NCBI GenBank assembly: GCA_003339415.1
Contig: PDHQ01000184.1
Span: forward strand, 1 to 64,000
DNA length: 64,000 bases
Reading direction: 5' to 3'
DNA from: Ophiocordyceps camponoti-saundersi (nom. inval.)
Lineage: Eukaryota > Ascomycota > Sordariomycetes > Hypocreales > Ophiocordycipitaceae
Each line of letters begins with the position of its first letter. Within the stretch, counting starts at the first letter, position 1. Of the stretch, positions 8,270-62,024 are shown one piece after another. Position numbers and translations under genes: made by a program. The notes under the pieces were generated by a model that made no database searches, was not told where the DNA came from, and saw nothing but the letters and a program-made list of their open reading frames with translations.

Positions 8270-8375
8270 TTTTTTTAAGCTTTCTTAATTAAGAAGCTTT
8301 TCTAATCGGAAAGTTAGTTTTTATAATTTAGTAACTTAAAGCCTAAAAATATATAAAGGAGGGGGGGGGTCGCTT
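8270..8375 (+). promoter_or_regulatory. Palindrome pair, TATA-like box and G-run in A1
   Basis: Two adjacent palindromes derived from TTCCTAATTAGGAA lie near 8280-8318. They are followed by ATATATAAAGGA at about 8349-8360 and a run of nine or more G at 8361-8369. The same order recurs in A2, A3 and A4. Position and layout (TATA-like box about 550 bp before the first frame) suggest the transcription control region of the plus-strand frames. Function is inferred only. Confidence 0.4.
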
Positions 8376-9590: not shown

Positions 9591-9664
9591 TTTATATATA
9601 GTTAAAATAATTTAGCTTTAAAGCTAAGTAAGTAGCTAGTAAAATAAATAATAAGGTTATCGCT

Positions 9665-34176: not shown

Positions 34177-34760
34177 CTAAAGCTGCCTACTCCTCCTCTA
34201 CCGCTAGCTCCTCCTCCTTACCGGACGCGGCATAGTCGCTAACCGGCGTTATAAAGTTTTCGTTACTAGATATATTATTAACTAGACTATCTTAAATAGG
34301 ACTAGAGATCTCCTTATAAGGAGGCGGCGCGGTCTTAGCACGGGTATTAGTAATATCCTCCCCGGCGGCAGGGGTAACCTTAACGCTTAGGGTAGGAGTA
34401 GTCTCGGGCTTACTAAGCTTATTAGCCTTAAACTCGGACTCGGACTTAGACTTAATAGGTACCGGGGCGGAAGCGGAACTAATAATAGGAGGCGGAGTAT
34501 AGAGGATAGGAGGACGATTAGTAAGAAACGGGCTCCCTTATAAGCGCGCTTTATTCTTAGTAGCGCGGCGGATATAGCATAGCTCCTCGGTTAACTATTT
34601 AAAAAAGTTAATTACTTATATATAGAAAATACGCTATTTTTATATCTAAGCTAATATAGTAATAATAAGTTAGTTAGCGCTAGTTAAATTTTCGGTTACT
34701 TCGATAATAAGGTCCTCCTTAATAATAGGAGGCTATAAGCTTTAAAATAGTACGCGGCTA
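34177..34760 (-). pseudogene. Best preserved copy of the family A Gag-like ORF
   Basis: The minus strand reads about 195 codons with only TAA/TAG at Gln positions. In order it shows a helical part (TENLTSANQLITT, VFYIQVINFFKQLTEE), a basic stretch (RRATKNKARLQG), a Pro/Ser/Lys linker (PPILYTPPPI, VPIKSKSESE, SKPETTPTLSVKV), then an acidic end (GKEEELAVEEE). Cys and Arg codons that became Tyr or Lys in A1 and A2 are still present here. The truncation point at 34177 falls right after the acidic stretch. No named family recognised. Confidence 0.6.
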
Positions 34761-34802
34761 GCGGCCGCCTATATAACTTAATTAACGTAAGTATTATTAT
34801 AA

Positions 34803-36664
34803 TAATATTATTACGCTAGTATACTTTATATAGTTTAGAACTATCCTATATATATTTTAAGAGGGGGAAAAACCGGAGAATTTTAAGGTAAAACCCTCCC
34901 CTTAAGTGTTACCTTAGCTTTAGGTTAGACTACGCCTATACCTAGCACTCTATACTTTTTATAAGTTAGGTAATAATTAGTAATTAAGGAAGCTAATATA
35001 TCCCCCGGAATAGAGCTCGCGGTAATAAGTATATACGTAGTCTAGGTTTAGTACGGAGTCCGTATAGCTTACTTATCTTCCTAGCTATTATTATCGCTAT
35101 AAACTAAGTCCTTATATTCGATTAGGGTAGCCTTAATAATCTAGTTAATTAAGGCCTAATTAATATAGCTAAGGAATATATAAAGGTTTTATTAGCTTAT
35201 AATAAACCTTATAATAGCTAGTTCCGAAAGGCGGCCTAATTATTATAGCGGAGCTGCGGATAAGTTCGGAGAGGGGGTTAGAGGCGGAGCTACTATATTC
35301 GCTTTTTAGTATTTCCGCCCCGGCTATTACTAGACTCCGGTTAGCGCTAGAGGGGGAGGAGGGGCGGTATATATAAAGTTCTAATTTATAAATCTCTAGG
35401 GTTAGGAAATATAAATATCTTTTACCTAATCTTACGCCGCTCTTATTTTAAGGTAAAGTTAACTTTACCTAAAGTAAGTCCCCTAATAAAAAAGGTAATA
35501 GTGCGGTTTTTTTCTATAAGCTATAAGATAAGCTAACTCGCCCTCTATATATAAAAAGGCGGAGTATTAGCTATATTATAGCTTTACTATATAGTATTTA
35601 GTAATATATTTAAGCTAATAATATTTAAAATATTATTAGGGTTAGATTTTTAATATATAAGGTTCCGCGTTAAAAATCTCTACTTATATTATTATACCTT
35701 TATTATAAATCTAGTTTATATTTATTACGCTATTAATAGTAATTATAAGGGAACTCTGCTAAATCTTTAAATAATATTTTTTTATATATAGTTATATTAC
35801 TAAAACCTTATTTAAAAACTTAATCTTTTTCTAAAAAGCTTCCTTACCGCCCTACTATAAGGCCCGCGCTAATACCCCTTTTATAATAAGAGTATAATCT
35901 CCGCTAGTTAAGCGTGCCTTTTCTCTAAAAATAGCGTAAAGTTACCTTAAATTAGATTAGAGCTTATAAATAATATCTTAGAAAACTACTATAATATTAC
36001 CGCTAAGTAGTTTCCTTATTATAAAAACTTAGCTTTACTTATAAAGTCCGCGGTTAATATTTATTATAGTTACTTTAAAGCCTTAGACTTAAAATAGTAT
36101 AATAATAAAGTTAAAATAAATTATAAGCTAATATTTATATTATTTAGGAACTTATTTCTTAATAATTTTCTCTAGCGTTTTAGCTATAACCGTAGCTTAT
36201 ATTAAAGGAGTTCCGCTCTCTTCGAAGCTATAGAAAAAAAAGGAAACCGTAGCTATAATAGCTAAGGAGATATTACTAATTAATAAAGTTAGAGTAAGGG
36301 GGGCGCCTCCCCGGACCCTCTTAGACTCCGCTACTTATTCGATAATTACCTATATAAAAATTAAAATATCCCCCGAAATAATCTTACTAATACTCGCCTT
36401 AGCTTCTAATAAGGTAAAAGGTACGGTAAACTTTTAAGTTTAAGTTTATTATAATTTAGAGTAAAGCTATATTCTAAGTAAAAAATTTTCGCGGTTACGA
36501 TTAACTTATATAATATCGCCCTCCCCCCCGGAGTTACTCTAAGCGCGGCTTAAGGCTATCGCTATAAGGTAACGGAAAGAGTAGAGTTTACTTATAATAT
36601 AAGAATAAGGGGTTTATATCCGCATCGCTATAAGCGTAAAGTTTATAGAATATATATAATAGTG
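34803..36664 (+). mobile_element. Family D full-length copy D8 (1.86 kb) inside A3
   Basis: Inserted in A3 with a duplication of up to 17 bp (CGTAAGTATTATTATAA at 34786-34802; CGCGAGTATTATTATAA at 36665-36681). The tail end (TAATATTATT) is on the left and the module lies in reverse at 34868-34896, with a 17-nt spacer in this copy. It is the least mutated D copy and keeps several CCCC and GGGG runs. Confidence 0.88.
35426..36257 (+). pseudogene. Family D ORF remnant, unidentified
   Basis: A plus-strand frame of about 275 codons with stops nearly all TAA/TAG (about 8 percent). Stretches include YFKVKLTLPKVSP, SFLTALLQGPRQ and NLALLIKSAVNI. After about 36250 the reading seems to move to another frame with KGNRSYNSQGDITN and a C-terminal YNIRIRGLYPHRYKRK-like basic region ending near 36650, which may reflect a frameshift or an intron. 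The minus strand is also open locally near 35220-35340, so the assignment is moderate. No known domain recognised. Confidence 0.4.
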
Positions 36665-37229
36665 CGCGAGTATTATTATAACGCGCGATAGCACGTATCT
36701 TTTTAATATACTAAATTATATTTTTCTATTATACTTATTAATATAAAACTTACTATAAACTTAATATACTTTTAATATTACTTATTATTTAAGCGTTACG
36801 ATTAAAGCTTAGCTAGTAAGCGACCTTAACTATAGCGCGAATAGCTTTAGCTATAGTAAGATCGTTAATTAGCTAGCACTTAGTGCGATTATTCGCGTAT
36901 TTAATATAGGCCGCGCTTAGATAATTTACCCCGGTTATTAGCAGATACGGATGTACGCTAAGGCTAAGTACTTATTTCTTTATACTTAATAAAGGTTCTT
37001 AAAGCTAATAAGCGTACTAATATACTCTATATAAGATACCGCTTAAAGAAAGTTAAGTTTAGCGGGTATTTTACTCCGGTATAGGTTAGCTACGAACTAG
37101 TTACGCGCGCTAAAGATTACTTATATAGTTAAAATTATTAAAAAAATAATAAAATAATAATAGCCCGCTTATACTAGTAAGAGTAACCCCCCCCTCTTTT
37201 ATATACTTTTAGGCCTTAAGTTACTAATT

Positions 37230-37271
37230 TATAAAAATTAACTTCCTAATTAGGAAAGCTTCCTAATTAGG
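37230..37271. repeat. Perfect double palindrome in A3
   Basis: Two exact copies of TTCCTAATTAGGAA separated by two or three bases, followed by AAGCTT. This is the best preserved form of the motif seen in A1, A2 and A4. A TATATAC string and a C-run (the reverse of the TATA-like box and G-run) lie on its left at about 37186-37212. Confidence 0.8.
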
Positions 37272-37554
37272 AAAGCTTAAAAAAGGGGTATATACTTAGG
37301 TATATACTATATATAAAGAAGGTATATAGCTATATACCTAAGAGTTAAGTAATATATACCTAAAGGCCGGGGAGGTATATATTAGTATATATAGGCAGTA
37401 CGTACCGCCGCTACTATTATCTTTCCTTATCTTATCTATCTTTCCTTATCTTTCCTTACGTTATATAGTATTACTATAACCGACGGTTACTTTCTTTATA
37501 CGCGTAAAGCGCCTAGCCTAGCCCCGAGCTAGACGCGGTCTTACTATATAGCGG

Positions 37555-37585
37555 GGGGTTTTACCTCTTTTAGGAGGGTTTTTCC
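37555..37585 (+). other. Shared tail module of A3
   Basis: GGGGTTTT (37555-37562), 16-nt spacer able to fold as CCTC-TTTTAG-GAGG, then TTTTTCC (37579-37585). The TAA tail begins about 55 nt later. Confidence 0.85.
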
Positions 37586-37937
37586 TACTCGACTTATTAC
37601 TAAGGTTTTAGCAGCTATTTCTATAGCCTCTAAGGTATTATAATAATAATAATAATAAAAAATAAATTTTATTTTTTTTAAAGTTTATATATAAAAAACT
37701 TACTAAGGTAATCTCTGCGTAAAATTTTTACCTTATATAAAGTATTTTTAATATAATATTTACTAAGCTTTAATAACGCTAATAAGCTTTTAAAAACTTA
37801 TTTAACTTACTTATTATTATTTTTTATATTATTTAAAAGTTAGTTAAAGCTATTTTTTATAAAATAATAAGTAAAAAGTTAAACTGCGCCCTTAAAGCTT
37901 TAACTTAAGCTAGTATAATTATAAACTCCGCCCTAAA

Positions 37938-38104
37938 TATTATACCGCCGCTAGCTACTATTATGCCCTTATATAAGTATATAGTAAGCTTTTCCTTTTA
38001 TAATTAAGGGGTTTTACCTTACTTTAGGGGATTTTTCCTACTTAATATATTATAAAAGCTTTAAATACTATAAAGGCTCTTAGCGTATAAATAAATAAAA
38101 GAAA
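37938..38104 (-). mobile_element. 167-bp family X tail fragment X5
   Basis: Contains only the last 167 bp of the X tail end, including the module (GGGGTTTT 38008-38015, 16 nt, TTTTTCC 38032-38038) and an ATAAATAAATAAAA tail. It is flanked by a 17-bp duplication, ATAAACTCCGCCCTAAA (37921-37937) and ATAAACTCCGCCTTAAA (38105-38121). It is the smallest copy in the window and retains the module and tail and almost nothing else. Confidence 0.88.
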
Positions 38105-41100
38105 ATAAACTCCGCCTTAAACTTTACCCCTTTTTATAGCGCCCCTTATACGCTTAATTCCGGCGAAAATAAAAAGGGAGGTATTTTTATTAATAAAGGA
38201 TATCTTAGTAATTAATAAAGTTTTAACGCTTACTTTTTAAAAAGTTATTCGGGAAGTTAATAAAGCTATAAGCTACCTTATAATAGTTACTATATATTAA
38301 CTTTTTAGTAAAGATTTTATTATTATATTTAACTTAAAATATAAAGATTTTACTTTAAAAAATAAATAAATAGCTTAAGCTTTTAAAGCGGAGGCTAAGT
38401 ATATATATTAAACTTATACTATTATTACTAAGGGTATTTAAACTTTAATAGCTAATAATAATTATAACGCGCTATTTAGTATTATTAAAAAGGTAAATAA
38501 AGTTATTATAATTTAAGTAAAAGTATTTTAGCTTTAATATATTATTAGTAAAGAAGCTTTATAAACTTATCTTATTATAAGCTTAAGTAATATAAAGGAT
38601 ATAAATAAGCTTTACTTAAATAAAGTAATTATAAATATAAAAATAATTTATTATAAATTTTATAAGGATTTTATACGCTTTAAGTAATATTATAAATATT
38701 TTTAATTTAAATATATTACTAAGTATTATTAGAAGCTTTTTTAATATAAATATTATATAATTATTTTATATAATAGTAAAGAAAAAAACTACTTTATATA
38801 AAAGGGAGAAAAACCTTATTATTATATCTTATATAAGAGTATATATTTTATATAGTTAAAAGACTACTTAAAGTTTTAAAAATAATAAAGCTATACTAAG
38901 TTTAGCTTTTCTAATAAGCCTCGCCTTTTATAATTATTATAGTTTACTTAACTTTTAGCTTTTACTTAGCGGTAATTTTATAAAAATAATAAAAGCTTTA
39001 TTATAATTTTTTTAAAAAAGCGAGTATATTATAAATCCTTAAAAATATATTTTAGCGCTTTTCTTATAATATACTATTTACTTAAGTCTTTTTAAAAAGC
39101 TCCGAACTTAGTAATACTTATAAAAGCTATAAGCTATATAATAAACTTTATAATTTATAATTAACTTTATAATAATTTTAAATAAAGTTTATATTAATAA
39201 ACTATATATAGTAAAAATAATTATAAATAATTATTTTTAATACTTAGTTTTTATAAAAATTATAACTTTATTATAAAATATATAAAAAATTAACTACTTT
39301 ATTTAGCTTACTAACTTTTTACGACTTTAGACGATCGGGGTCCCTATTTGTTCTTAACGCTATAATATTATAAGAATTTAGTGCTTTCTGCCTTTTAGAG
39401 TCCGACTTCGCTAAGGGAATAGCCCTAAACGCGGGGTCGCGGGGCGGCCCGCCTCCCGGTCCGCTATCGGTACCGATAATACTTAATAGCGGAACCTAAG
39501 AGCTTAACTAATCCTAATAATATCTATATATAAGTAAAAGTTAATATAATATAGCTACTAACTCTAATAACTTATTTATCGATACTTTTTAAACTTTAAT
39601 AAATCTTATCTTAAAATTTATATATAAAAAACTTACTAAGGTAATCTCCGCGTAAGATTTTCGCCCTATATAAGGTATTTTTAATATAGCGTTTACTAAG
39701 CTTTAATAGCGCTAATAAGCTTCCGAGGACTTATTTAGCTTACTTATTACTATCTCCCGCGCTATCTAAAAGTTAGTCGAAGCTACCTTTTATAAAATAA
39801 TAGGTAAGGGGTCGGACTCCGCCCTTAGAGTTCCGACCTAGGCTAAACTCCGCCCCCCCCGCGGCGCCCCTTATACGCCTAGTTCTAGCGAGAATAGAGA
39901 AGGAGGTACTTATATTAGTAAAAGATATCTCGGTAGTTAAGGGAATTCTAATACCTACTCCCTAAAAAGTTATTTAGAAAGTTAATAAAGCTATAAGTTA
40001 CTTTATAATAATTATTATATATTAACTTCCTAGCGGAGACCTTATAATTACTTTTAATTTAGAGTATAAGGACCTCGCTTTAAGGGATAAGTAAATAGCT
40101 TAAGCTTTCGGAGCGGAGGCTAAGCGTATATATTAGACTTATATTATTATTACTAAGGGTATTCGGACCTTAGTAGCTAACCGCGACCGCGACGCGCTAC
40201 TTAATAGTATTAAGAAGGTAAATAAAGTTAACGTAATCTAGGCGAAAGTATTCTAACTCTAATATACCTTTAGTAAAGATACCTTACGAACTTATTTTAT
40301 TATAAGCTTAAGTAATATAGAAAACGTAAATAAGCTTTACTTAAATAGAATAATTATAAATATAAAGATAATTTACTATAAACTTTATAAGAACTCCGCA
40401 CGCCTTAAGTAATATTATAGATATTTCTAATTTAAATATATTACTAAGTATTATTAGGAGCCTCTTTAATATAGATATTACGCGGCTATTTTATATAATA
40501 ATAGAGAAGAGAACTGCCTTATATAGAAAGGAGAGAGACCCCGCTATTATATTTTATATAAAGGTATATACTTTATATAGTCGAAAAACTACTCGGAGTC
40601 CTAGAAATAATAAAGCCGCGCTAAGTCTAGCTTCCCTAATAAACTTTACTTTTTCTAATTATTATAGTTTACTTAATTTCTAGCCTTTACTTAGCGGTAA
40701 CTTTATAAAGATAGCGAAAACTTCGTTACTATCTCTTTAAGAAAGCGAGCGTATTACGGATCTCCTAAAAATATACCTTAGCGCCTTTCTTATAGCACGC
40801 TACTTACTTAAATCTCCCTAAAAAGCTTTTAACTTAATAGTACTTATAGTAGCTATAAATTACGTAATAAACTCTATAACTTATAATTAGCTTTATAATA
40901 ATTCTAAGCGGAGTTTATATTTATAAACTTTACGCTATTAAAGTAATCGTAAATAATTATTTTTAATATTTAATCTTTATAAAGATTATAACCTTATTAT
41001 AAAATATATAAAAGATTAACTATTTTATTTAGCTTACCTTATTTAGTAAGGAAAGTTACGATATTATCGCTATATAAGAATTCTAGCCCGATATATATAA

Positions 41101-44100
41101 TCGCTTTTTACTTCTAAAACTCGCTTCTTACCGCCTTATTTAAAATAAAAGTAAAGCTCTCCTTTATATATATAAATAATATAAAATCTATAATTAAAAC
41201 CTTATAATAAGGCCTAACCTCGCTAGAGTATCTTTCTATAATAAACTTTAAGTATTTACGGTCTACTCCCCGCCGCTTAAAATATATATTAAACTTCTCC
41301 TACGCTTATTACCCCCTCCTTTCTCCTTATACTCCGCCTTTAATTCTACTCCGCTAGTTATCCTTAGCGATTTTAACGCTTATTATCCCTCCTAGGACTT
41401 TTACGATTATACCTCCCTTTACTCCGCGGAGCTTCTTTTCGCTTTTTACTAACTTTACTTTAAACTCCTTACCCCTCCCTATAAGATTACCTAAAAAGTA
41501 TATAAGCGGAGGATTAATATTATTAACTTAATTTAAAGCACGCCCGATTATTTCCTTATATATTTTAGCCTAGATTTTAATCTTTTTAGCTTTAATTATA
41601 TCTCTTAGTCCGCGTTTTTTATAACCTCTCCCTTTTTAAACTTTATACTAATACCGCGCTAAAAATATTTTAATTTTAATATCTTATAAGTAAAAGTAAA
41701 AAATTAACTTTTATTTTCTATTATTTAAGCGGAATTTATAGCGGATATTAAGAAGTTAGTAATATAGCTATATAAATAACTAAATATTATAGCTAGCTTA
41801 ATAGTTTTAAAATTACCTTAGTAATATAGTTTTTATTTATATTTATAGTAAACTTTAAAAGTTACTTTTATAATTTTAAATATAAAGTATATTAGGCGAT
41901 ATTAGTAAGCGTAGCTAAACTCCGATTATTAGTAAGTATATTAAGATACTATAATATAATAGAAATTATTTATTAGAAAAGCGAAGAGAGATAACTAAAG
42001 ATAATTTCTCGCCTTTATAAGCGGTAACCTTAATACTATATAATTTATAGCTTAGTAAATAAGACTCTATAGCTAGGCTTCTCCGAAGCTTATATATACT
42101 CCTCCTTTTTAATAAGATATAGACTCCGCTTTCTAATTATTTTTCTCTAAAAAGTTAAAGCTCCTAGCTTATAAGTTCTTTCCTTATCCCTTGGAGAATA
42201 CCCCGTACCTCCTTATTCCTAACCCCTTCCCCTTAATAAATATTCCCTTTTAAGTTACCGAAAATAAAGTCCGCTCCGCTTTTTTTAATATTATATTATA
42301 GAAATCCGCTAAGCTTAATAATATTCTTATTAGCTTCCTAAAAAGTTATAGTTAACTTTTTATAATAGTTTTAATAAAGCTTTTTTAAGGATATATTACT
42401 TATAAATATTTCCTTATTTAGTATTAAACCTTTAATATTACGGTTCTCCGGAAAGCGGGTAAAAGCTTAAAAGTTTATTAAACTCTAGGCGGCTATTATT
42501 TTATCTTTTTTCTTAATATTATAAGTAAAATCTTTAAGATTATAATTATAAAAAAAATATTTTATATAGCGGAGTTTACGGGAGTCTTATTATAAGGTTA
42601 AATAAGTAACTATCCTAATTAATTTACTAATAGCGCCTTACTCCTCCTAATAGAGTCTATCCGCACTATTTAAAGCTTTTAAAGCTCCGCTTCCCTCCTA
42701 ATATTAAATATAATAAGCGCTTTTAACTATATTTCGCACTCTAAGCTAATAGAAATCCTTAACTCCCTTAGCTTCCTTAAATAGATTATAGCTTTCCTTT
42801 ACTTTTACTTTTTTAACTATACCTCCCGCTTAAAAGTTAATAGTAAACTATTAAACTTTTTCCTTATCTTTACTAGAGTCTTTTAAAGCTTCCCGCTCTC
42901 TCCGGTATTATTTATCTTATATATTTTATTTTTTTATAAATACTTAGAATAAGCGACTAATATACTCGCTATTAGATTTATAAACGATATTAATATTTTT
43001 AATATTAAGCGTACCTCTACTTAAGTCCGCTATTAGCTTAAATAAGCTTAAGGTATTTACTAAGATTAAGTAGCGGAGTATAAAATAACCTTCTAGCTAC
43101 TTAAGAGTAAGCTTTTTTATTTTACGAAAGCTTACTTTACTAATATAACTCCGCTAGTTTTTAATAAGATTATTATTTAATTTATATAAAAGGTATATAT
43201 ACTTAGGGTTTAGATTTACTATAAGCTTTAATAAAAACCTTACCTTTGCTATTTTATAAAAAAGCTTAATTACTAATAGCTAGCCTTAACTAAACTTATA
43301 TTATTTACTTAGGGCTTTTTACTTTTCTAAGTAAAGGAAATTTATATTAAAGTTATTAGGTCTATTATCGCTTTTAGCGCTATAATTTACTCTACTCTAA
43401 CCCCGCTAGGCGGTAAACTTAAAAGCTTTATCTTTCGATAGCTAGCTATAACTTAGTTTAAATACTTCTATATTATTTTCGGGGCGTACTAAGCTACCCC
43501 TTCTTACTATATCGAGTCTAAGTTTTTCGTCCTTTTTATTAATATTTACCTATTTTACCGCGCTGCCCGCGGCTACTAACTCCTTTATACTAAAAAACCC
43601 GTAGCTTATATCCGCTCTACTTTAGAGAGAATCTCTATATACCTTCGCTAATAATATAAAAGTTAGCCTTACTTTACTTACGTCCCTCTTAAATCCCTCC
43701 GATCCTCTTTTATTACTTAGGTACGGACTTTAGATATCTCCTCCTAGTTCCTTAAAACTCTAAAAGCTTACTTTTACGAAAAGTAGTAGCTTCGCTAGAA
43801 CTTTAAAAAGGGAAAGCTCCGAAAATATAGCTAGTCCTCCGGATACCTTATTAATAAACCGCCCTAATTAAAACTTAGTAACGCCTTATAAATTTATTAA
43901 GGTTTTCCGAAATTCCTTAGTAATACCCTAACTTAGCTCCGTAATAATAAAATTAGCCTTAATAAGTTTCTTTATACTTATAATATTCTTATAGTTTTAA
44001 CCCCTTATTACCCTTATAATAGCGAGGAAGATAAGATAGTAGCTTACTTTACTTTATAATATAAGCTTACTGCTTATAAAAGAACGCTTTTACTTATATT

Positions 44101-44379
44101 TCCTATAAGTCTAATCCGAGACTATAAGGATTTTAATAAAGTTTTTAGTTATAAGGCTATTATAAGCCCTCTTACTTTATAATTTATCCGCTTATAACGC
44201 CTCCGCTAATTTAACCTTTTTTTATTATTTTATAATACTTAAGTATATTAAAATACTTAAGCGTAAGGTTTAAGCGTAAGGGATAATTTTTAGTATTTTT
44301 ACTATATAATTATTATTATCTATCTACCCCGTACCTTACTCTTACCTCCGCCCCCTATTTTACTTAGCTTTACTTAGCT

Positions 44380-45207
44380 TACTTAGCCCTTTTACCCCTT
44401 TTCCTACCTTACTTTTTACCTTATCTTTTACGCCTAATAATACCTCTAACGCCCGTAAGCTTATTCTTTAAGTTACTATTATCGCTCTCCGCTACGCGCT
44501 TTAATATTACTAACGCGGACTTTATAAGAGAAAGCTTTAATACTTAAATAAGGTCCGGCTTAGGCTCCGGCTTCGTTACTCCCTTACCTTTCTCCTCTAT
44601 ACCTCTTATTACCTCCGCTCCGCTTACCTCCTCCTCCGCTTTACCCGCCCCCTTAACTCTATCCGCCCCTTTTTTATTATTTTTAACTATTACCTAATTT
44701 AACTTACTTTTTAATATTAATACGATAATAATTAATATCTAAGCTACTACCTTATTCTCCTCCGCCTCCGACTCCTTTTTCGGTACTAGCTCTTACTCCG
44801 CTTTTAGGCGATTTAAGTTAAGAGTACGCTAAAGCTTAAAAATATTCTCCGGAATATATCTAAATTAGTTAATTTTAATATAATCCGCTACCGCCTAATT
44901 AAGGTTATTTTAAACTTAATTAATATTATATATTATATTATATATAAAAAATTAGAGGTTTTATATTTTTACTTATATTTTTAATTAAAATTTTTATAAA
45001 AACTTTATAATATAGTCTTTCTAAGTAGTAATAATAATAATAGTAATAGTAATTATTATTATAAGTACCGCCTCCCCTATTTCCGCTATAATTTCTATTA
45101 TTATCGCTATAATTATTATTAACTAAGCTAGCGCCTCCGCTACCGCGCCCTCCGCTACTACCTTCGCTTCCTCCTCCGCGTCCGCTATTACCGCTTACTT
45201 CGCTTAT
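44380..45207 (-). pseudogene. Family X Gag-like ORF remnant in X2
   Basis: Minus strand. From 45207 to about 44990 one frame reads a Gly/Ser/Asn-rich stretch (SGRGGGSEGSSGGRGSGG, then NNNYSDNNRNYSGN). From 44885 to 44380 another frame reads a Glu/Lys-rich stretch (LVPKKESEAEENKVVAQ, KGAGKAEEEVSGAEV, VTKPEPKPDLI) and a very basic end (RRKRQGKKQGRKRGKRAK). A frame change near the (TAA) tract at 45030 separates them. It corresponds to 1500-2540 in X4. Charge pattern and position fit a Gag/ORF1-type nucleic-acid-binding protein; no named domain. Confidence 0.55.
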
Positions 45208-46129
45208 AGTCTAACTATTATATTTATTACCGCCGCTATTATTATTATCGCTCCGCCCCCCTCTCCGCCTCCCGCTCCGCTTATACTTAGTATTCTAAAG
45301 TAAACTAATATTAATATATAAGACTCCTAGGGAGAAGTATTAATAATTATTATAGTAAGAGTAATATTAAAAGCGGCCGCTAGAGTAGCTAACTTTACTA
45401 AGGCGCTTACTTATATTATTATTATTATTATATTAAGTTAGAGCTTTAACGCTTTATTCCGCTTTTACGTATTATATAAGTTAACTTAAATTCTCTCTTA
45501 TTACTTATTATTAGCCGTATCCGAAACTTTACTTTACTCCGCTCCGCTTTGCTCTATATTTACTAATAAGCTACTTAGCTATCCTCCTCTGCTAATATAT
45601 TATACTACTTTTATTATAGCGGTACGTAACTTCTCCGAATATATTTATAACTTAGTTAATACTTTAAGCTTTAACTTTAGCTTAACCTCTAATATTACTT
45701 ACCTCTCGATATTTATACCGGGCCTTAGTATAATTATAATAATTAGCTAATTATAAGCTTATACGCTTTATTAGCTTTATATATAGCTAGTATTATATAA
45801 TATTACTTACTTTATTATTTTTAATATAGGACCCCGCGGTTAGCTAATTAGGCTATATATATAATATAAAAAAGGTTATAAAGCTTACTACGGATAATCT
45901 TAAGTATATTCGTTACTATTACTTTATTAGTATAGCTACGTAACTTTTTTACCTTTCCTTTATTATAAAAGTTAAAAGGAAAGGTTAAGGGAGGGGGTTA
46001 GAAATATACCTTTTTCTAAAAATAATAAAAAGAAGAAAAAGAGGAAAAGAAAAAGGAGGTAAAAAAGAAAAAGATATAGCCCCCCCCCCCTTTAATTACT
46101 AATATATAATAAAGCGGCTACCCCGCTAT

Positions 46130-46280
46130 TTTACCTTACCCCCTCTTAGACTTTCCTTCCTCCGCCCCGCCCCGCACCGCCTTACCTTATACCGCCCCGT
46201 ACCGCCCCGTACCGCCCCGTGCTACGCTACTATACTATACCGCCCCGCTTTTTCCGCCCCGTACTTTACGGACTTTCCTT
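46130..46280. repeat. C-rich leader with tandem CCGCCCCGTA
   Basis: Three to four tandem CCGCCCCGTA-type decamers amid GCCCCGCC strings, between the tail module and the Gag-like frame of X2. X4 has the mutated counterpart at 490-660. Confidence 0.7.
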
Positions 46281-46419
46281 TCTCCGCCCTCCCCTCCTTA
46301 CCTTATTTTCTTATATTATTTAAGATTACCCCCGGGTAATAAGCTTATTATACTATACCGCCGCTAACTACCGCTATATTTTTATATAAGCGTATAGTAT
46401 ACCTTTCCTTTATAGTTAA

Positions 46420-46450
46420 GGGGTTTTGCCCTATTTTAGGGGATTTTTCT
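46420..46450 (+). other. Shared tail module of X2
   Basis: GGGGTTTT (46420-46427), a 16-nt spacer with CCCT/AGGG arms around a T-rich loop, then TTTTTCT (46444-46450). The TAA tail starts about 55 nt further on. Confidence 0.85.
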
Positions 46451-46530
46451 TACTTAATATATTATAGAAGCTTTAGATATTATAAAGGCCCTTAGTATAT
46501 AAATAATAATAATAATAATATTTAGCTTAC

Positions 46531-49500
46531 TTTATTTAATAAAGAAAGCTATAATATTATTATTATATAAGAATTTTAGCTTAATATATATAATTACTTT
46601 CTACTTTTAAAATTTATTTTTTATTACTTTATTTAAAGCGAAAATAAAGCTTTCCTTTATATATATAAATAATAAAAATTTAATAATTAAAACTTTATTA
46701 TAAAGCCTAACCTTATTAAAATATCTTTTTATAATAAAACCTAAATACTTATTATTTACTCCTTATTACTTAAAATATATATTAAACTTTTTTTATACTT
46801 ATTACCTCCTCCTCCTTTTTTATACTTTACCTCCGCCTCCGCTTTACTAATTATTCTTAGTAATTTAAACGCTTATTACCTTTTTTAAAACCTTTATAAA
46901 TATACTTTCCTTTACTTCGTAAAGCTTCTTTTTACTTTTTATTAACTTTACTTTAAATTTCTTACCTTTTTTTATAAAATTACTTAAAAAGTATATAAGT
47001 AAAAAATTAATATTATTAACTTAATTTAAAATATATTTATATATATCCTTATATATTTTAGCTTAGATTTTAATTTCTTTAGCTTTAATTATATTTTTTA
47101 ATTTATATTTTTTATTATTTTTTCTTTCTTAAACTTTACTTTAATATTATAATAAAAATATTTTAATTTTAGTATTTTATATATAAAAATAAAAAACCGC
47201 CTTTTACTTTTTATTATTTAAATAAAGTTTATAATAAATATTAAAAAGTTAAGAATATAATTATATAAATAATTAAATATTATAACTAACTTAATATTTT
47301 TAAAATTACCTTACTAATATAATTTTTATTTATACTTATAATAAATTTTAAAAATTATTTTTATAATTTTAAATATAAGATATATTAAATAATATTAATA
47401 AGTATAGCTAAACTTTAATTATTAATAAGTATATTAAAATATTATAAAATAATAAAAAAATTTTATTAGTAAAATAAAAAAAATAATTAAAAGCGATTTT
47501 TTACTTTTATAAATAATAACTTTTATATTATATAATTTATAGCTTAGTAAGTAAAACTTTATAGCTAAGTTTCTCTAAAGCTTATATATACTTCTTTTTT
47601 TAATAAAATATAAACTTTACTTTCTAATTCTTTTTTTCCGAAAAGTTAAAGCTTTTAGCTTATAAGTTTTTTCCCTATTTTATAGAAAATATTTTATACT
47701 TTTTTATTTTTTACTTTTTCCCCCTAATAAATATTCCTTTTTAAGTTACTAAAAATAAAATCTACTCCGCCCTTTTTAGTATTATATTATAAAAATCTAC
47801 TAAGCTTAAGAATACCCTTATTAGCTTCCTAAAAAGTTATAAATAACCTCTTATAATAGTTTTAATTAAGCTTTTTTAAGGATATATTACTTATAAGTAT
47901 TTCCTTACTTAATATTAAACTTTTAATATTATAATTTTTTAAAAAGCGGGTAAAAGCTTAAAAGTTTATTAAACTTTAAATAGCTATTATCTTATCTCCC
48001 TCCTTAATATTATAAATAAAATCTTTAAAAGTATAATTATAAAGAAAATATTATATATAGCGGAGTTTATAAAAATCTTATTATAAAGTTAAATAAGGAA
48101 CTAGCTTAATAAGTTTATTAATAATATTTTACTTTTTTTAATAAAATTTATTTATATTATTTAAAGCTTTTAAAGCTCCGCTTTCTTTTTAATACTTAAT
48201 ATAATAAGCGCTTTTAATTATATCTTATACTCTAAGCTAATAAAAATCCTTAACTTTTTTAGCTTTTTTAAATAAATTATAGCTTTCCTTTACTTTTACT
48301 TTTTAAACTATACCTCTTACTTAAAAATTAATAGTAAACTATTAAACCTTTTCTTTATTTTTATTAAAATCACTTAAAGCTCCCTGCTCTCTTTAATATT
48401 ATTTATCTTATATATATTATTATTTATAAGCGCTTAAAATAAGTAACTAATATACTTACTTTTAAGTTTACTAATAATATTAATATCCTTAATATAAAGC
48501 GTACCTTTACTTAAGTCCGCTATTACTTTAAATAAGCTTAAAGTATTTACTATAATTAGGTAATAGAGTATAAAATAACTTTTTAGCTATTTAAAAATAA
48601 GCTTTTTTACTTTATAAAAGCTTACTTTATTAATATAATATTACTAATCCTTAATAAGAATAATATTTAATTAATATAAAAGGTATATATATTTAAAGTT
48701 TAGATTTATTATAAACTTTAATAAAAGCTTTACTTTTATTACTTTTTAAAAAAGCTTAATTACTAATAGCTAGCTTTAATTAAGCTTATATTATTTATCT
48801 AAGGCCTTTTATTTTTTTAAGTAAGGGAAATTTATACTAAAGTTATTAAGTTTATAATTACTTTTAGCGTTATAATTTACTCCGCTTTAACTTTACTTAG
48901 TAAGGAACCTAAAAGCTTTATTTTCTAATAGCTAGCTATAACTTAGTTTAAATACCTTTATATTATCTTTAAAGTATACTAAGCTATTTTTTCCTATTAT
49001 ATTAAGTCCGAAACCTTTATCCCTTTTATTAATATTTACTTATCTTATTATATAACTTATAGCTACTAACTCTTTTTTATTAAAAAGCTTATAGCTTATA
49101 TTTACTCCTTTTTTAAGAGAATTACTATATATCTCTACTAATAATTTAAAGGTTAGCTTTAATTTATTTATATTCTTTTTAAATCTCTCTAATTTTCTTT
49201 TATTACTTAAGTATAGATTTTAAATATCTCCTCTTAGTTTTTTAAAACTCTAAAAGCTTAACTTTATAAAAAATAATAGCTTTATTAAAACTTTAAAAAA
49301 GAAAAGCTTTAAAAGTATAGCTAGTTTTTTAAATACCTTATTAATAAATTACCTTAACTAAAACTTAATATCGCTTTATAAATTTATTAAAGCTTTTTAA
49401 AGTTTTTTAATAATTCTTTAATTTAGCTATATAAGAATAAAATTAGCCTTAATAAGTTTCTTTATACTTATAATATTCTTTTAATTATAACTTTTTATTA

Positions 49501-50555: not shown

Positions 50556-50845
50556 TAACTAATATTTATATACTAATATGCCTTATATAGCTTAAAACTA
50601 TCTTATATATATTCTAAAAGAGGGAAAAACTAAAAAGCTTAAAGTAAAACCCTTTCTTTAAGCGTTATTTTAGCTTTAAGTTAAACCTTACCTATACCTA
50701 GTATTTTTTATATCTAATAGTTTAGGTATCTACTAGTAATTTAAAAGCTAATATTTCTCCTAAAATAAACTTTATAATAATAAAAATACGCGTAAACTAA
50801 GTTTAATATAAAGTTTATATAGCTTACTTTAACTTTTTATTTATT
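50556..50845 (+). mobile_element. Family D copy D9, left 280 bp, cut by X3
   Basis: Tail-end sequence of D (ATTTATATACTAATATGCC, then the module in reverse near 50622-50650) up to the D position TTATATAGCTTACTT, where X3 begins. The rest of D9 is not in the window and is expected beyond X3 on the right. Confidence 0.7.
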
Positions 50846-54500: not shown

Positions 54501-55692
54501 AATACTTTTTATCTTATATATTTTATTTTTTTATAATTACTTAGAATAAGTAATTAATATATTTATTATTAAATTTATAAATAATATTAATATTCTTAAT
54601 ATTAGTTATATTTTTACTTAAATTTATTATTAGCTTAAATAAGCTTAAAATATTTATTATAATTAAGTAATAAAGTATTATTATTATTATTATTATAGTA
54701 CTCTAAAGGCTATAGAAGTAGCTGCTAGAACCTTAGTAGTAAGTTAAGTAGGAAAAACCCTCTTAAAAGAGGTAAAACCCCCCGCTATATAGTAGGACCG
54801 TATCTAGCTTAGGGCCGGGCTAGGCGCTTTACGCGTATAAAGAAAGTAACCGTCGGTTACGGTAATACTATATAACGTAAGGAAAAATAAGGAAAGATAG
54901 ATAAGATAAGGAAAAGATAATAATAGCGGCGGTACGTATTACCTATATATACCGGTATATACCTCCCTAGCCTTTAGGTATATATTATTTAACCCTTAGG
55001 TATATAGCTACGTACCTCCTTTATATATAATATATACTTAAGTACGTATTTTTTTTTTAAGCTTTCCTAATCGGGAAGCTTTTTTAATTAGAAAGTTAGT
55101 CTTTATAAATTAGTAACTTAAGGCTTAAGGGTATATAAAGGAGGGGGGGGTCGCTCCTACTAATATAAGCGGGCTATTATTATCTTATTATTTTTTTAGT
55201 AATTTTAACTATATAAGTAATCTTTAGCGCGCGTAACTAGTTTATAGCTAACCTATACTAGAGTAGAATATTTACTAAACTTAACTTTCCTTAAGCAGTA
55301 TCTTATATAAGGTATATTAATACGCTTATTAGCTTTAGAGACCTTTATTAAGTATAAAGAAATAAGTACTTAGCCTTAATATATATTTATATTTACTAAT
55401 AATTAGGGTATATTATCTAAGCGCGGCCTATATTAAATATATAAATAATTATACTAAGTATTAGCTAATTAATAATCCCGCTATAGCTAAAGCTATCCGC
55501 GTTATAATTAAAGTTACTTACTAGCTAAGCTTTAATTATAACGCTTAAATAGTAAATAATATTAAAATTATATTAAGTTTATAGTAAATTTTATACTAAT
55601 AAGTATAGTAGAAAAATATAATTTAGCGTATTAAAAAGATATATATTATTACGCGTTATAATAATACTTACGCTAATTAAGTTATATAGGCG

Positions 55693-56372
55693 GCCGCTAG
55701 CTATATACTATTTTAAAGCTTATAACCTCCCGCTATTAGAAAAGACTTTATTATTAATATAACTAAGAGTTTAACTAGCGCTAATTAACTTATTACTATT
55801 ATATTAGCTTAAATATAAAAATAGCGTATTTTCTATACGTAAATAATTAACTTTTTTAAATAATTAACTAAGAAGCTACGCTATATCCGCTATACCGCTA
55901 AGAATAAAGCGCGCTTATAAGGGAGCTTATCTCCTACTAATTATCCTCCTATCTTTTATACTCCGCCTCCTATTATTAATTCCGCTTCCGCTTTAATACT
56001 TATTAAGTTTAAGTTTAAGTTAAAGGCTAATAAGCTTAGTAAGCTTAAGACTATTTTTACCCTAAGCGTTAAGGTTACCTTTACCGCTAGGAAAGATATT
56101 ATTAGCGCTTATACCGTAACCGCGCCGCTTTCTTATAAGGAGATCTCTAATTTTATTTAAGATAGTTTAATTAATAATATATTTAGTAATAAAAACTTTA
56201 TAATATTAGTTAGTAATTATATTATATTTAGTAAGGAGAAGGAGCTAATAATAAAAAAGAAATAAGTAGCTTTAATTTATATTTATAATTATAGTTAAAA
56301 TTAAAGCTATAGCTAAGGCCGCGGCTATAATAAGCGTAGTTAGTTTTATATTTCGCGTAGTTAAATTAATAC
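55693..56372 (+). pseudogene. Family A Gag-like ORF remnant in A2
   Basis: The counterpart of 8911-9590 and of the minus strand of A3. Same order of helical, Pro/Ser/Lys-rich and charged parts, with more Lys and Tyr from RIP. Stops are TAA/TAG. Confidence 0.55.
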
Positions 56373-56569
56373 CTTATATATAATTAAAATAGTTTAGCTT
56401 TAAAGCTAGGTAAGTAGCTAGTAAGATAAATAATAAAATTATTATTATAAAGCGGCCTTTATATATTTATTATAAGGCTAAAGGCCTTATCTCCCTTATC
56501 TATTTTGCTTTTATAAAGTAATATTATAAGGTTAAATTAGCGTAATTATTTAAGCGAAAAAAACTAATA

Positions 56570-58640
56570 TATAAGTTTAGCTATAAATTAAGAGTTATTA
56601 AGCGCTTTAATAAGGTTACGCTAGTCTTATATCGGTCGCTTATTAATATTAAAAAGTAGCTTATTTTTATAAGTAAAGGTATAGTTAAGAAAAATATATA
56701 ATATAATCTTATCGCCCCTATTATAAGGGTAGCGTCTCGAAACTACCCTGGGGACCTTACGAGCTTAGAGAAAGGAATTAAGCTTAATATATCTAATCCG
56801 AAGTTATATAAGTATTATACTAATAAACTTAGGAAGTTTTTTATAAATACGTAAAGTAGTCCTAGCTTTAAGCTATAGCGGTTTATTAATAAGGTAGCTA
56901 TAAGATTACCTATATTTCTTAAGCTTACCTTTTTAGGAATATTATTAAAGGAGCTACTTTTCTTAAAATCTAATATTAAAATTATATTATATATATCTAG
57001 CCTCTAGTTCGGGTCCGGTTTATATCTTATAGAATTCCTCTAAGTCTTATAATACTTAATATTACTATTAATAGGGGCGCCTCCTATACTTATATTTAAC
57101 TTACTTAGTAGCTTTCTTTACCGTAGTACGGATAAGGTTTACTATATTTATATATTAAAAGCGTTAGTAAATATAAGCTATCCGGTAAGTAAAATATAAG
57201 TTAACGGGGATAATAAAAGCTTTTATTTTAATATAATAAAGAGGGGTAGCCTTATAAGCTCTAGTAATAATTTTTAGGTATTTAGACTATTCCGTAGCTA
57301 GCGCTTTTAAAATAAAGCTATATAGTTTCCCCCTTAATTACGTAAGCGGGGCGAATTAGGATATACCGAATATAATCGCTAATCTAATAGCTTTAATATA
57401 AACCTCCTTTATTTTTAATAAGGTATAACCTTACGTTAATATAATAATTTTAGTAAAAGCTAAGTATTAGCGCTTAAGTTTAATAATAAGTTTTAAAAAG
57501 TAAGATTTTTATTAAAGTTTATAATATAGCTAAACCCTTAAAAATCTTACTTTTTATATAAGCTAAACTATCTTTATATTAAGCTAAAGCTAAGTTATAT
57601 CTATTTTCCTAGCTTTTATAAAATATATTAACTTACTTTTAGCTAGCTAAAAAGTTATTTTATATTTAAGAGCTTATTATTCGTAAATTCGCTATACTTA
57701 CTTAAGTTAGAAAAGTACTTAAGCCTTATCGCGTCCGATATTAAGTATATTAGTATTATTAGCAAAGCTTACCGTAAATAATCTAGTTATTAAGTTTAAA
57801 TATTAATATAATAATAATATATATAATAAGAAAAGGATTAATAATATAAGAGACTTTTAGGGGACCTTTTACTAAATTAGGAAAATATTACTAAGCTTAT
57901 AGTTTAAACTTAAATTATAAGGTTTTAGTAATAAGATAAGAATAAATAAACGCTATAACTTATTCGGGAAAGCTTAAGTAGTTAAGAATAATTATTAGCT
58001 TATTATAAGAAATATAATTAAAAGCTCCGGTAAGGTTTAATAAGAGGAGTAAAGCGGTGCCGCCTTAGTTTTAGATAATCTTAATAGTTTTAGTAAATAT
58101 AAAGATTATAATATTAGTAAAGTATTATAGCTTATTACCTATTTAGCTATTTAAGAAGATATTAGCCGCTTTTACTATAAATATTATTTTCCTAGTAATA
58201 ATTATTTTTAAAATTTTCCTTATTATATTAAAAAGCGAAATCGGCCTATACTTACTTAAGGTATACTATATAGCTAATAGTTTACTTACCTTATAGATAA
58301 TTATAATATTAAAAGCTTTAAATCGTAATAGGAAGTAGCTATTATTAATATAGCTTTAAAAGATTTTTTAAAAAACTTAGATAAGGGGGAGTTTATATTT
58401 TTTTAGGAACCTAACTAAGATCCTATTAAGGCTAGCGGACTTCTATAAGGCGATTAAGAAAAAAGTAAAGTAAATATTATCGGTAATAATTAAATATTTA
58501 ATATAGAAAAAAGGGAAAAGTTTATTTAAAATAAAAGGAGGGGCTAAGGCGGTAAGAGTAGGGAAAAATTACTAGCTAAGTAAAATTACTTTATTTAAGA
58601 AAGTAGATATTAAGTTTAAGTTAGGGCTTTTCTATAGCGT
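56570..58640 (+). pseudogene. Family A second ORF remnant in A2
   Basis: The counterpart of 9788-11854. Shared stretches such as NYFQNFPYYIKKRNRPILTQ, ALKDFLKNLDKGEF and LLQGDQEK survive, and many differences from A1 are conservative. One net 1-nt indel exists between the copies. It continues less clearly to about 61040, where both copies end in a Leu/Asn-rich frame. Not identified. Confidence 0.5.
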
Positions 58641-61343
58641 TAATATATATATAAGCTTTAATAAAGCTTAGCTCTAAAGCTAAGCTTAATATTTTATTAT
58701 TTAAAATATTACTAAGTTTATTAAGATATTATTAAGGAAATTACGCTAGGCGCTATAATAAGCTACGCTAATTACGGATTTTTACGCTTTTATTACTTCT
58801 TAATAATCTTATTAATAAAAGTTAGTAAAGTTAGCTTTTTAATATTTTCGGGCCCGCTTAGCGGCCGTTATAATAGCCGCTATTACCTAATTTTACTAAT
58901 TTTATATTATAAAGTATATATAGATACGTAATAGTATTATAATCTTTATTATTATTTCTAGCTATTTATATAATAAAGTAACTACTCTTTTTAAGTTTTC
59001 GGGTATAGAGGTATAATATAGTTTAAGCTTAAGTTAGTTCCGTACCTTAGCTATAAGTATATCTAAGTAAAAAAAGCGCTAAATCTTAGTTAATATAATA
59101 TTAAGGCGGAGGTTAATATTTATATAAATAACTTACGGAATATAATCGGAGCCGATAAAGTTAAGATTATTTCCTTAGTATATTACGCGGTAATCTAGCG
59201 TAGCTTAAGCTAGGTTAATAATACTAGTTCGTTTATTATATATTTCCTAAGTAACTTCGCTTATAAATATAATAAGTTTAAAATAAAAGCTAGTTATAAG
59301 ATTAAGAAAATTAGCTATTTTAAGGGAGGACTTTTCGTAATAATTTTATAAGGGGTAATAAAAGTTAAAATCGCTATATAAAAAGGTAGCTATAAAGGTT
59401 AAGTTAAGGTAAAGAAAATTACGCTATAAAAAGGGGCTAAACTAGATTATTAATAAAAATAAGTAAATAGATATAATTTATAATAAGGGTATAATATAGA
59501 AAAAGATAGAAGCTATATTAAGTATAATAAAAAATATCTAAAAGGAGAGGTTTAGTTATTTATAAATATAGAAAATTACTTAGTTATTAAAATTTATAAG
59601 TTTATATAATAAGATATTAGGAAGCGGAGAGCGTTTAAATTAATTATATTATAATTTTTATAAATAAATAAGATTATAGCCGATAAGGCTATAAAGCGTA
59701 ATATAAATAAGATAATTACGCTTTTATATATTCTAAAAAAAGGTTTTAATTTTTATTAGGAGTAAGAGAGGTAAAAGTTTACGATTATATTAAGGTAAAG
59801 GAGGGGGCGGAAAAAGGGGCGGAGGAGGGGGCAGAGGAGAGTATAATAAAAAGGGAAAGGGTAAGAGGGGGAGGATAAGTTCCCTAAGCTTTACCGCTAC
59901 CCTATCCGCTATAAGGTCCGGGGGTAGCGCTACTCCCGCCTTAGCCTCTCTTCAGTGCTAGGGCGGGCTTATTATTTATATTAAAATAAAGTATAGCTTA
60001 TAACTATATAGGGGCCGCGCGTAACCGCTTCTAAAACTAAATTTTAATAAAGCTATTATTAGTTTAAAATTAAGTTAGCTAAGAGTAATCTTAAAACTTA
60101 TAAAATCGGTATATATAGTTATTATATATTTAGTTTTAATATATTTTCGTAATAAGGTAGTTTTAAGATTATAAAGCGTAGTTCCCTTTATATAAGATAT
60201 AGTTTTTAATATTAGTTTTAGTAAAAGCTAAATATACGCTCTCCTTTTTTAAGTATATTATAGCTATATATATTTTATAATATAGCTATTTTCGGTAATA
60301 TTTCGCTATATACTTATATTAGTAATATTAGTAGTATTATTAGGGTTATATTACGTTATTATAAATTTCTATATAGGAGATTATTATATTTATAATTAAG
60401 CTATTTTATATAAGTTTATTAGTATTCGTTATATTAGTAATTTTTAGGATAATATAAGTATATATAGCTCCCTTACTATAAGGCTAAAGCGCTAAAACTT
60501 AGGCGATATTAACCTTATTATATTTTTTAATCTATTATAAAAGTATATTTTAGTTATTATAAGCGGCCCTTACTTATACTTCCTTTATTATAATAAAGAA
60601 GGTTTTTTAGCTATAACCCGCCCTTTTATTAAAAATAATAAAGATTTACTTAACTAAGCTTACTTATCTTTTATATTTTAGATAAAATATAACTATTATA
60701 TCTCTATTAGGGAGTTATCTTATAACTAATATAGCCTTATATTTTAAAGCTATATTCGTAGCCTATACGATCTTTTATAAAGTTAGCTATAAGGTATCTA
60801 CGTTAATTATAATATTTTTTATAAATATAGTAATTTCTTTATTAAAGCGATTAAGGATAAGTTTAATTATTATATTACTAATAATAATTATAGAAGCTTA
60901 TAATAGCTAAGTTAAACTAATATTAAAGCTAATAGTTTATAGAAATACTTTTTATATAGCTTAAGTAACTATTTTCTTAATTAACTTAATAATCTTAGGT
61001 AAAAGTTAGGTAATATTCTAATCTAAGGAGGTTACGAATTTTTTATAGAGTTTAGCTTTAAAAGCTACTACGATATTTTAAGTATTAGAGAACGCCGCGG
61101 TAAGTACTACCGCGGCTAATTTATTATAAGCTTCCTTTATATTACTATTATAAAGGTCCTATACTTACTCTACTTCTCCTCCTATTCTAACGCTATTATT
61201 ATATTATCTTTAGCTAGATTAGGGGTACTATAAGGACTATCCTAGTCCCTATATACCCTTATCTATAACTATAGGCGCGTTGCCTGCCCCTTAGGCCCCG
61301 GCTAAAGCCGCCGCGGGCGCTATTAACTCCTTCTCGGTAATAA

Positions 61344-61358
61344 ATATATAGTAAAGAG
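61344..61358 (+). repeat. Left target duplication of the SINE
   Basis: ATATATAGTAAAGAG, repeated exactly at 61953-61967. The uninterrupted A1 copy has a single ATATATAATAAAGAG at about 14332-14348, followed by CGAAAGATTAAG as on the right side here. Confidence 0.92.
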
Positions 61359-61439
61359 CCCTCCTAGCGTAGTAGTTAAGCGTTTAGAGATATTAGTCTC
61401 CTATAAGAGAGGCAGTTAGTTCGAATCCGGCGGAGGGCA
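61358..61439 (+). tRNA. tRNA-like head of the SINE (pseudo-tRNA)
   Basis: An 82-nt cloverleaf-like sequence. The 7-bp acceptor stem GCCCTCC/GGAGGGC is perfect, with A as discriminator base. An A-box-like TAGCGTAGTAGTT (61365-61377) and a B box AGTTCGAATCC (61418-61428) are present, and the T loop is TTCGAAT. A reading with loop CTCCTAT gives anticodon CCT (Arg), but it leaves nine extra bases in the D-arm region and a poorly paired anticodon stem; a long variable arm is an alternative. RIP explains weak pairs in the T stem. Probably a promoter-bearing tRNA relic, not a working tRNA. Confidence 0.65.
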
Positions 61440-61443
61440 CGGG

Positions 61444-61450
61444 TATTTTT
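61444..61450 (+). terminator. T-run just after the tRNA-like head
   Basis: TATTTTTC lies five bases after the discriminator. A run of five T would normally stop RNA polymerase III. In an active SINE it would cut the transcript short, so one or more T here may be RIP products of C; otherwise the source was a genuine tRNA gene with its terminator. Confidence 0.4.
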
Positions 61451-61860
61451 CACCCTAACTATATAGCCGGGGTACGGTCCGACCCCGGCATAACCCCGGC
61501 AGGAGTAGTAACTTTACCGGGCTCCTTCCCTCTCTTAGTAGGAGTAGTAACCTAGCCGAGGCTTAGGTAAGGTAAGGCGCGGGGTAAGGGTATAGTTAGA
61601 TAACGTAGGTTATTAAAAAAATAGGTTCCTTTTAATAGTAACTATAATTTAATAATAAAGTATAATTACGAAATAATATATCTTCGCTATAATATTTATT
61701 AATATATATACTAGAATTACTTAGAATTTAGATAAGATATACGATAAGAAATATAGGTATTTCTCGCTTAAGACCGGCGTAACTTCGGATATTTCCTATA
61801 ATAATTAAGCTTTCCGATACGACGTAATTAGCTTATAAGCTAGCCGAATATATTAAGTAA

Positions 61861-61891
61861 GGGGTTTTCCCCCGGGCACTCTAGTTTTTCC
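61861..61891 (+). other. Shared tail module of the SINE
   Basis: GGGGTTTT (61861-61868), 16-nt spacer, TTTTTCC (61885-61891), then about 55-60 nt of AT-rich tail to the insertion end. Here the module is unambiguously at the 3' end, because the tRNA head fixes the 5' end. The spacer is C/G-rich and unlike those of A, X or D; only the two T-rich boxes and their distance are kept. Confidence 0.85.
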
Positions 61892-62024
61892 TCTCTATTA
61901 AACGATTATATACTTAGATACCTATATAGGTTATTAGAGTAATATAATATATATATATAGTAAAGAGCGAAAGATTAAGTAATAGGTCCTATCCCGTTAT
62001 CGTGAAAAGTTAAGTAATAAAGTA

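Follow-up and report, generated by a model that had tools for sequence, protein, structure and literature searches.

The question raised by this locus is why repeats of several families should end in one and the same short module. Here, we analysed positions 1 to 64,000 of contig PDHQ01000184.1 of Ophiocordyceps camponoti-saundersi (64 kb, referred to as the window), where GGTTTT, a spacer and TTTTTC recur near the ends of a SINE and of families A, X and D. The original prediction saw here a SINE and three otherwise unrelated families, all copied by the enzyme of a LINE with the same tail. The module places on which it relied all exist: GGTTTT-N15-17-TTTTTC matched the window 12 times, where 0.11 matches were expected (mean of 100 dinucleotide shuffles), the degraded A5 lies at 27720 (+), and D8 at 34867 (-) has the 17-nt spacer ascribed to it. 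The genome-wide count proposed as a check gave 417 matches to GGGGTTTT-N15-17-TTTTTC in the 45.7-Mb genome (214 on the plus and 203 on the minus strand), against 6 (3 and 3) for the reversed pattern. The X-type and D-type patterns matched 124 and 401 times, respectively, and never when reversed; the two differ in looseness, and 401 against 124 is to be read accordingly. Thus, the notion that AT-rich DNA with many T runs yields such strings by chance or composition is refuted by the window and genome counts, and also by the position of the modules at element ends, at a fixed distance from the reverse transcriptase (RT). We give it practically no weight, even though 3 of 19 matches with longer spacers were of low complexity, as many as in the reversed control.

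The spacers sort the copies into families. Among the 100 genome matches listed, 37 were of A type, 30 of X, 28 of SINE and 4 of D type, while one (C44:131762, L078) was unrelated, as judged by reading its sequence. Widening the spacer to N6-30 gave 337 genome matches against 5 for the reversed pattern; 91 of the 100 listed had spacers of 16 or 17 nt, and the other nine had 11, 14, 14, 18 and, in five cases, 23 nt. Spacers of 18-30 nt accounted for 19 matches against 3 reversed. Sorted by eye, these comprised 11 of a further family, E (23 nt), 4 of a variant SINE with 18-19 nt (among them L087, whose fetched DNA shows a SINE-like tail), 1 of A with its T run lengthened, and 3 apparently due to chance. 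Hence, the spacer of exactly 16 nt is a family-bound property, since spacers of 14, 17, 18 and 23 nt also occur; its sequence does differ between families, as had been claimed, but its length is not kept. The distance between TTTTTC and the simple repeat, given originally as 55-60 nt, was 51-56 nt by manual count in the least mutated copies of A, X, D and SINE S and 84 nt in E. Where the simple repeat begins, the tails of A, X, D, S and E have a second block in common, CTAG-N-GTA, with C replaced by T in some copies; the original prediction overlooked both this block and the hairpin nature of the spacer (see below). No earlier report of the module was seen among the open-licence papers listed by literature searches.

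What can be read from such conservation depends on the mutational history of the DNA. The window has observed/expected ratios of 0.02 for CpA and 0.03 for TpG, and such a loss of both dinucleotides is what repeat-induced point mutation (RIP) leaves behind. The window is extremely mutated by RIP, which points to a filamentous ascomycete. Since RIP never changes T and A, conservation of T runs within a single family proves little, and only comparison between families counts. Similarly, a C-G pair may become U-A, with both partners changed, through RIP and nothing else, and therefore we do not rest the case on covariation.

A and X are the 3' ends of two LINE families with related RTs, and the former description of A, X and D as unrelated does not hold. 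In a genome search with the RVT_1 profile 150 matches were scored, and those spanning at least 624 bp were taken, by our own criterion, as LINE-type. All nine of these long loci (8 X-type, 1 A-type) have the module downstream on the same strand, as found in fetched downstream DNA for four, by pattern coordinates for three and in DNA fetched at the predicted place for two; LINEs that end in the module do exist. The distance from the RT start is 3.5-4.0 kb in eight of the nine (3.5-3.9 kb in the first four fetched, three X-type and one A-type) and 2.4 kb at C185; at C132 the module has T in place of the last C. The LINE A RT, used as a protein query, gave 634 candidates, of which 57 copies were scored. 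Of these 57, 13 lie on contigs reached among the module matches listed, and in 12 of them an A-type module stands 3467-3484 nt from the RT start, the remaining one (C68:60308) having no module at the expected place. The RTs of LINE A and LINE X are identical at 48% of 584 aligned positions. An endonuclease domain (EN, PF14529) was found upstream of one LINE A RT (C325) as the only match in the genome, which gives LINE A EN and RT (RVT_1) domains; in LINE X RVT_1 alone was found. RNase H (PF00075) matched the genome only twice (C110 and C443), on contigs without listed LINE RTs. The RNase H of these LINEs may be hidden by RIP, and some outside RT relatives (P0013-P0016) have one. Among the 7985 candidates scored, the best outside relatives were RT and EN-RT proteins, the best organism-named one being a reverse transcriptase of Colletotrichum incanum that carries RNase H (P0016). 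As no RNase H was found on them, we call both LINEs Tad1-like only, and not Tad1.

Several LINEs ending in the module lie in the window itself (Table 1), and the core of the original prediction, a tail shared with the LINE whose enzyme does the copying, is well supported. The RVT_1 match in the window's LINE X copy that extends from the RT core lies in one frame and scores 22.2 bits, below the Pfam cut-off of 29.6. A further LINE copy, with about 73% nucleotide likeness to LINE X, was noticed at 47966-50545 (+). No autonomous LINE with a D- or S-type spacer was present among the nine long RT loci, 100 of the 401 D matches having been listed.

Table 1. Elements, modules and other features located in the 64-kb window (positions are those of the window).
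Feature	Position	Strand	Basis
Module of LINE X copy, X4	354..383	-	pattern
LINE A copy, RT core to 3' end	7871..11468	-	RT and module places
LINE A module, A1	7970..7997	-	pattern
Module of LINE A copy ceasing to match at about -470, A4	20702..20729	-	pattern
Degraded module, LINE A subfamily, A5	27720..27748	+	sequence
D module, D6	31179..31206	+	pattern
D module, D7	32070..32097	-	pattern
LINE A copy split by opposite-strand D element (nested insertion)	34177..37687	+	alignment
D element of full length (about 1.9 kb, with approximate ends), ORF1-like, inside LINE A copy	34771..36663	-	
Module of D element 34771..36663, 17-nt spacer, D8	34867..34895	-	pattern
LINE A module, A3	37557..37584	+	pattern
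Module of 5'-truncated LINE X copy, X5	38008..38037 (pattern match 38010)	+	pattern
ORF1-like region upstream of LINE X, resembles D (approximate)	38168..39395	+	protein comparison
LINE X copy, RT core to 3' end	42475..46567	+	81% to L059
LINE X module, X2	46420..46449 (pattern match 46422)	+	pattern
Module of 5'-truncated D copy, taken to be D9	50624..50651	-	pattern
LINE A copy, RT core to 3' end	54575..58251	-	74% to L062
LINE A module, A2	54752..54779	-	pattern
ORF1-like region of LINE A, resembles D (approximate)	60075..60969	-	protein comparison
SINE S copy, 602 bp, tRNA-like head to (AT)n tail	61358..61959	+	sequence; 17-copy alignment
SINE module GGGGTTTT-N16-TTTTTCC	61861..61891 (pattern match 61863)	+	sequence, pattern
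SINE tail downstream of the module, with a possible hairpin, the TTAGAGTA box and (AT)n	61907..61959	+	

The D element, of about 1.9 kb, is probably an ORF1-only derivative of a LINE of the A/X kind. Comparison by blastp of three D copies, one frame each, with the stretch upstream of EN-RT in the two LINEs gave 28-37% over 178-436 aa and E values down to 3e-27, to be set against the 7e-18 reached by wrong-frame hits on such AT-rich DNA. No Pfam domain was detected at E 0.1 in three frames of one copy, and a database search with one D copy returned no ORF1 homologue among the scored candidates. Several copies of the family are 5'-truncated. The excess of D-pattern over X-pattern matches, read with the unequal patterns in mind, suggests an abundant ORF1-only parasite in a fungus. 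A comparable element of mammals is HAL1 (half-L1), which is ORF1-only, has a LINE 3' end and occurs 5'-truncated. D, if ORF1-only, resembles it in these three respects but belongs to another LINE group, and its ORF1 is RIP-damaged and no more than distantly similar.

SINE S is a tRNA-type SINE with a tRNA-like head and target-site duplications. The window copy is flanked by the duplication GTAAAGA, of at least 7 bp (61351-61357 and 61960-61966). Flank duplications were evaluated in 16 of 22 copies, the six without a recognised 5' end being omitted, and averaged 8.25 nt, whereas the average for flanks paired wrongly was 4.58 nt and came as high in none of 300 mispairings. In 12 of these copies the duplication ends at the 5' boundary, in three it lies off it, and copy L049 has none. 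ARAGORN recognised a cloverleaf with no amino acid assigned in copy L040 and in a typed composite head, and no tRNA in the window copy nor in two copies in L045. In a hand count on the least mutated forms, the SINE S spacer agreed with that of D at 11 of 16 bases, with that of A at 6 and with that of X at 5. A run of T5-T7 in a small hairpin follows the tRNA-like head at 61441-61455 and at the same site in other SINE copies; this run and the T runs of the module resemble Pol III terminators and are ill-suited to a full-length Pol III transcript.

Family E is represented by an unmutated copy on C11 (L088, L085; C11:331090-332200), with a CpA observed/expected ratio of 1.07 and 59% GC. This copy has the module, CTAGCGTA, a (CAAT)n tail and a perfect 14-bp target duplication, TCATCATCAGCATC. 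Acceptor and B-box-like parts were recognised by eye in its head (this one copy only); this head shares 36-37 nt at 83-89% with SINE S heads, and ARAGORN calls no tRNA in it. Both GAGGTTCTAG and CTAGCGTA are common to E and LINE A. Since it is unmutated, the C11 copy displays one tail as it was before RIP, with the box CTAGCGTA and a repeat which is not poly(A); the (TAA)n of other tails may be former (CAA)n. About 215 nt between the body and the module of this copy are absent from the C99 copy (L086). The tail is thus present on both LINEs, D, SINE S and E, with target duplications for S and the one examined E copy, and with 5' truncation of X and D.

Rather than being arbitrary sequence, the spacer is a predicted hairpin. 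The predicted forms are CCUCU-UUUA-GGAGG in A, CCCC-ACUUUA-GGGG in X, CCGG-GCACU-CCGG in S and CUAAGC-CUA-GCUUAG in the 18-nt S form, that of E being longer. When each of A, X, D, S and E contributed a single form, comparison with shuffled spacers gave a combined Fisher P of 1.3e-4. A, X and the 18-nt SINE form each reached significance on their own, whereas D (p 0.32), S16 (0.10), S17 (0.18) and unmutated E (0.10) did not; two mutated E forms gave p 0.03-0.04. When spacer halves were swapped between families, 4 of 720 permutations were as good, and the 14-nt form, assigned to A by spacer likeness only, keeps the hairpin minus one base pair. Next to the U runs, GGG and CC(U) pair in nearly every aligned row, with the basal G-C pair adjoining the U loop in 58 of the 58 rows with letters there. 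Predicted outer-stem pairing beyond GGG/CC(U) is weakly supported (113 of 720 permutations with swapped arms were as good; combined P 0.029), and in E a longer downstream hairpin may compete with it.

Folding predictions agree in part. The lowest-energy fold is a stem, a UUUU/UUUUU loop and a second stem in the least mutated A1, X and S, and nearly so in D. RNAalifold, run on 61 rows, favours GGGG paired to the spacer's 5' part (its first half); twin hairpins built on this pairing tie with the lowest-energy form in A2 and are less stable by about 2-5 kcal/mol in A1, X, D and S, and so stay a possible alternative. For the mutated SINE module of the window itself, a different fold is predicted. 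In six pieces, the folding energy of the module region was not significantly below that of dinucleotide shuffles (z from +0.98 to -1.49; the A1 piece was off-register, cut without its 5' arm). Two alignments were prepared, one with 61 of the 62 listed copies with 16-nt spacers (L052 was dropped, and the 17-nt SINEs, D at 34867, A5 and L076, all with other spacer lengths, were left out), and the other with 19 hand-picked A and X rows. Covariation scores exceeded those of shuffles (0.342 vs 0.270, 0/500; 0.303 vs 0.240, 1/500) and also those of slid versions, but pairs changed on both sides did not (125/500 and 170/500 as high). We also considered a hairpin before the terminal repeat, whose combined P of 0.02 was judged not convincing.

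Between families, the sequence neighbouring the module differs, yet the U frame, GG/CC and the hairpin persist, and spacers of other lengths, the 14-nt form included, are again predicted hairpins. This argues against plain inheritance from one ancestral LINE 3' UTR, in which the module would be without function and the CTAG-N-GTA box and the repeat would do the work. Descent of all families from one LINE group is possible, RIP spares T runs for free, and AfuSINE2-1a of Aspergillus fumigatus, as its end is printed, has TCAGCGTA 4 nt before the repeat and no module (PMC5063351); even so, we hold such inheritance to be quite improbable.

We consider it probable that the module is a conserved part of a stringent-type LINE 3' recognition tail in a RIP-practising fungus. 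Such a tail would be composed of GGG, UUUU, a family-specific hairpin, UUUUU and CC(U), then 50-85 nt ending in the CTAG-N-GTA box, and a simple repeat. The RTs of LINE A and LINE X most likely recognised the module-bearing tail in their own RNA, with target-primed reverse transcription probably beginning at the terminal repeat. The families for which no RT was found (D, S and E) carry a tail of the same type and would have been copied by the LINE A/X enzymes. Both the binding of the tail by the RT and a division of work between the module and the terminal box are what we infer from this arrangement.

The same predicted shape can be read in another way. In ENEs, a U-rich internal loop lies between two stems (PMC12501189, PMC11411715), and their function needs flanking G-C pairs (PMC12501189); like the tails predicted here, the ENEs of KSHV PAN, MALAT1 and plant and fungal transposons place a stem, a U-rich loop and a stem near the RNA 3' end. 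The module might then be an ENE-like RNA stability element, its U4/U5 loop clasping an A tract as a triple helix and so protecting the RNA; the families would then have it in common since it aids the survival of any retroposon RNA, and not since an RT reads it. The predicted stem-loop-stem of A1, X and S fits this, as do the basal G-C pair beside the loop and the U runs, invariant between families in the aligned copies (themselves found by these runs) next to an apical hairpin which varies in sequence and length. ENEs, moreover, are reported mostly from plants and fungi, boost RNA stability and mobility of the plant element Evade (PMC12501189), and are stated to occur in fungal transposons (PMC12501189, PMC12846552). 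However, ENEs pair with an A tract or poly(A), and the tails here have none, the genomic ends being (TAA)n, (AT)n and, when unmutated, (CAAT)n. Further, the apical side of the U loop begins with a purine mismatch in A and X, the outer stem is weak, and the window contains no Rfam match at gathering score (four tail loci gave two weak, unrelated hits only). We find this explanation unlikely, although its lack of an A tract would cease to be an objection if transcripts with poly(A) were found. Slightly less likely again is that U4-hairpin-U5 is an ENE-type triple-helix element which also serves as the RT signal or stands beside it. If that were true, LINEs, an ORF1-only element and two tRNA-type SINEs would share one tail protecting the RNA and recruiting the enzyme, which would place ENEs on LINE- and SINE-like elements.

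As to the recognition tail, shared LINE/SINE tails of the fungal Tad1 clade are already in print (PMC3747384, PMC4176376, PMC5063351), so that calling the present case an undescribed retroposon system was too strong. A published table pairs Mg-SINE with MgL/MGR583 and SINE2-1_BG with Tad1-24_BG (PMC3747384), and AfuSINE2-1a, its end printed as ...TCAGCGTATGAG(TAC)n, is paired with I-1_AF/I-4_AO (PMC5063351). As in these pairs, a tRNA-headed SINE carries a LINE 3' tail here, and AfuSINE2-1a as printed also resembles our elements in its terminal simple repeat, in AGCGTA placed 4 nt ahead of that repeat and in its target duplication. It differs from them, read by eye, in having no U module, whereas U4-hairpin-U5 is present here; this one sequence hints that the box near the repeat was the earlier signal, to which this lineage added the module. 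Unlike the Tad1-clade pairs, with AfuSINE2-1a as the sole sequence compared, one module here extends over two LINE families, two SINE-type families and an ORF1-like one. In the L2 clade, UnaL2 and ZfL2 likewise have a short stem-loop before the terminal repeat, and SINE partners. In zebrafish L2 elements, a stringent-type LINE protein binds the 3' stem-loop of the tail, and in UnaL2/ZfL2 the loop is read by the cognate ORF2 (PMC4176376); in the present tails, by contrast, the hairpin differs from family to family between unchanging U runs. The best reading is that a known arrangement, the tail shared by LINE and SINE, appears here in a variation, with an unusual tail shape and an ORF1-only partner.

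One genome thus offers a natural series of two families with RT and three without a found RT, which have one kind of tail and five spacers set in the same U frame. With this series, what a LINE enzyme reads in its template becomes testable by swapping hairpins and U runs. The E copy on C11 is an unmutated copy of SINE type, although RIP is extreme in the window and has destroyed the other repeats examined. Two RVT_1 matches without internal stops, C5:39929-40375 and C222:360438-360692, lie in open frames of 2170 and 291 aa and are apparently undamaged reverse transcriptases, as far as their reading frames indicate.
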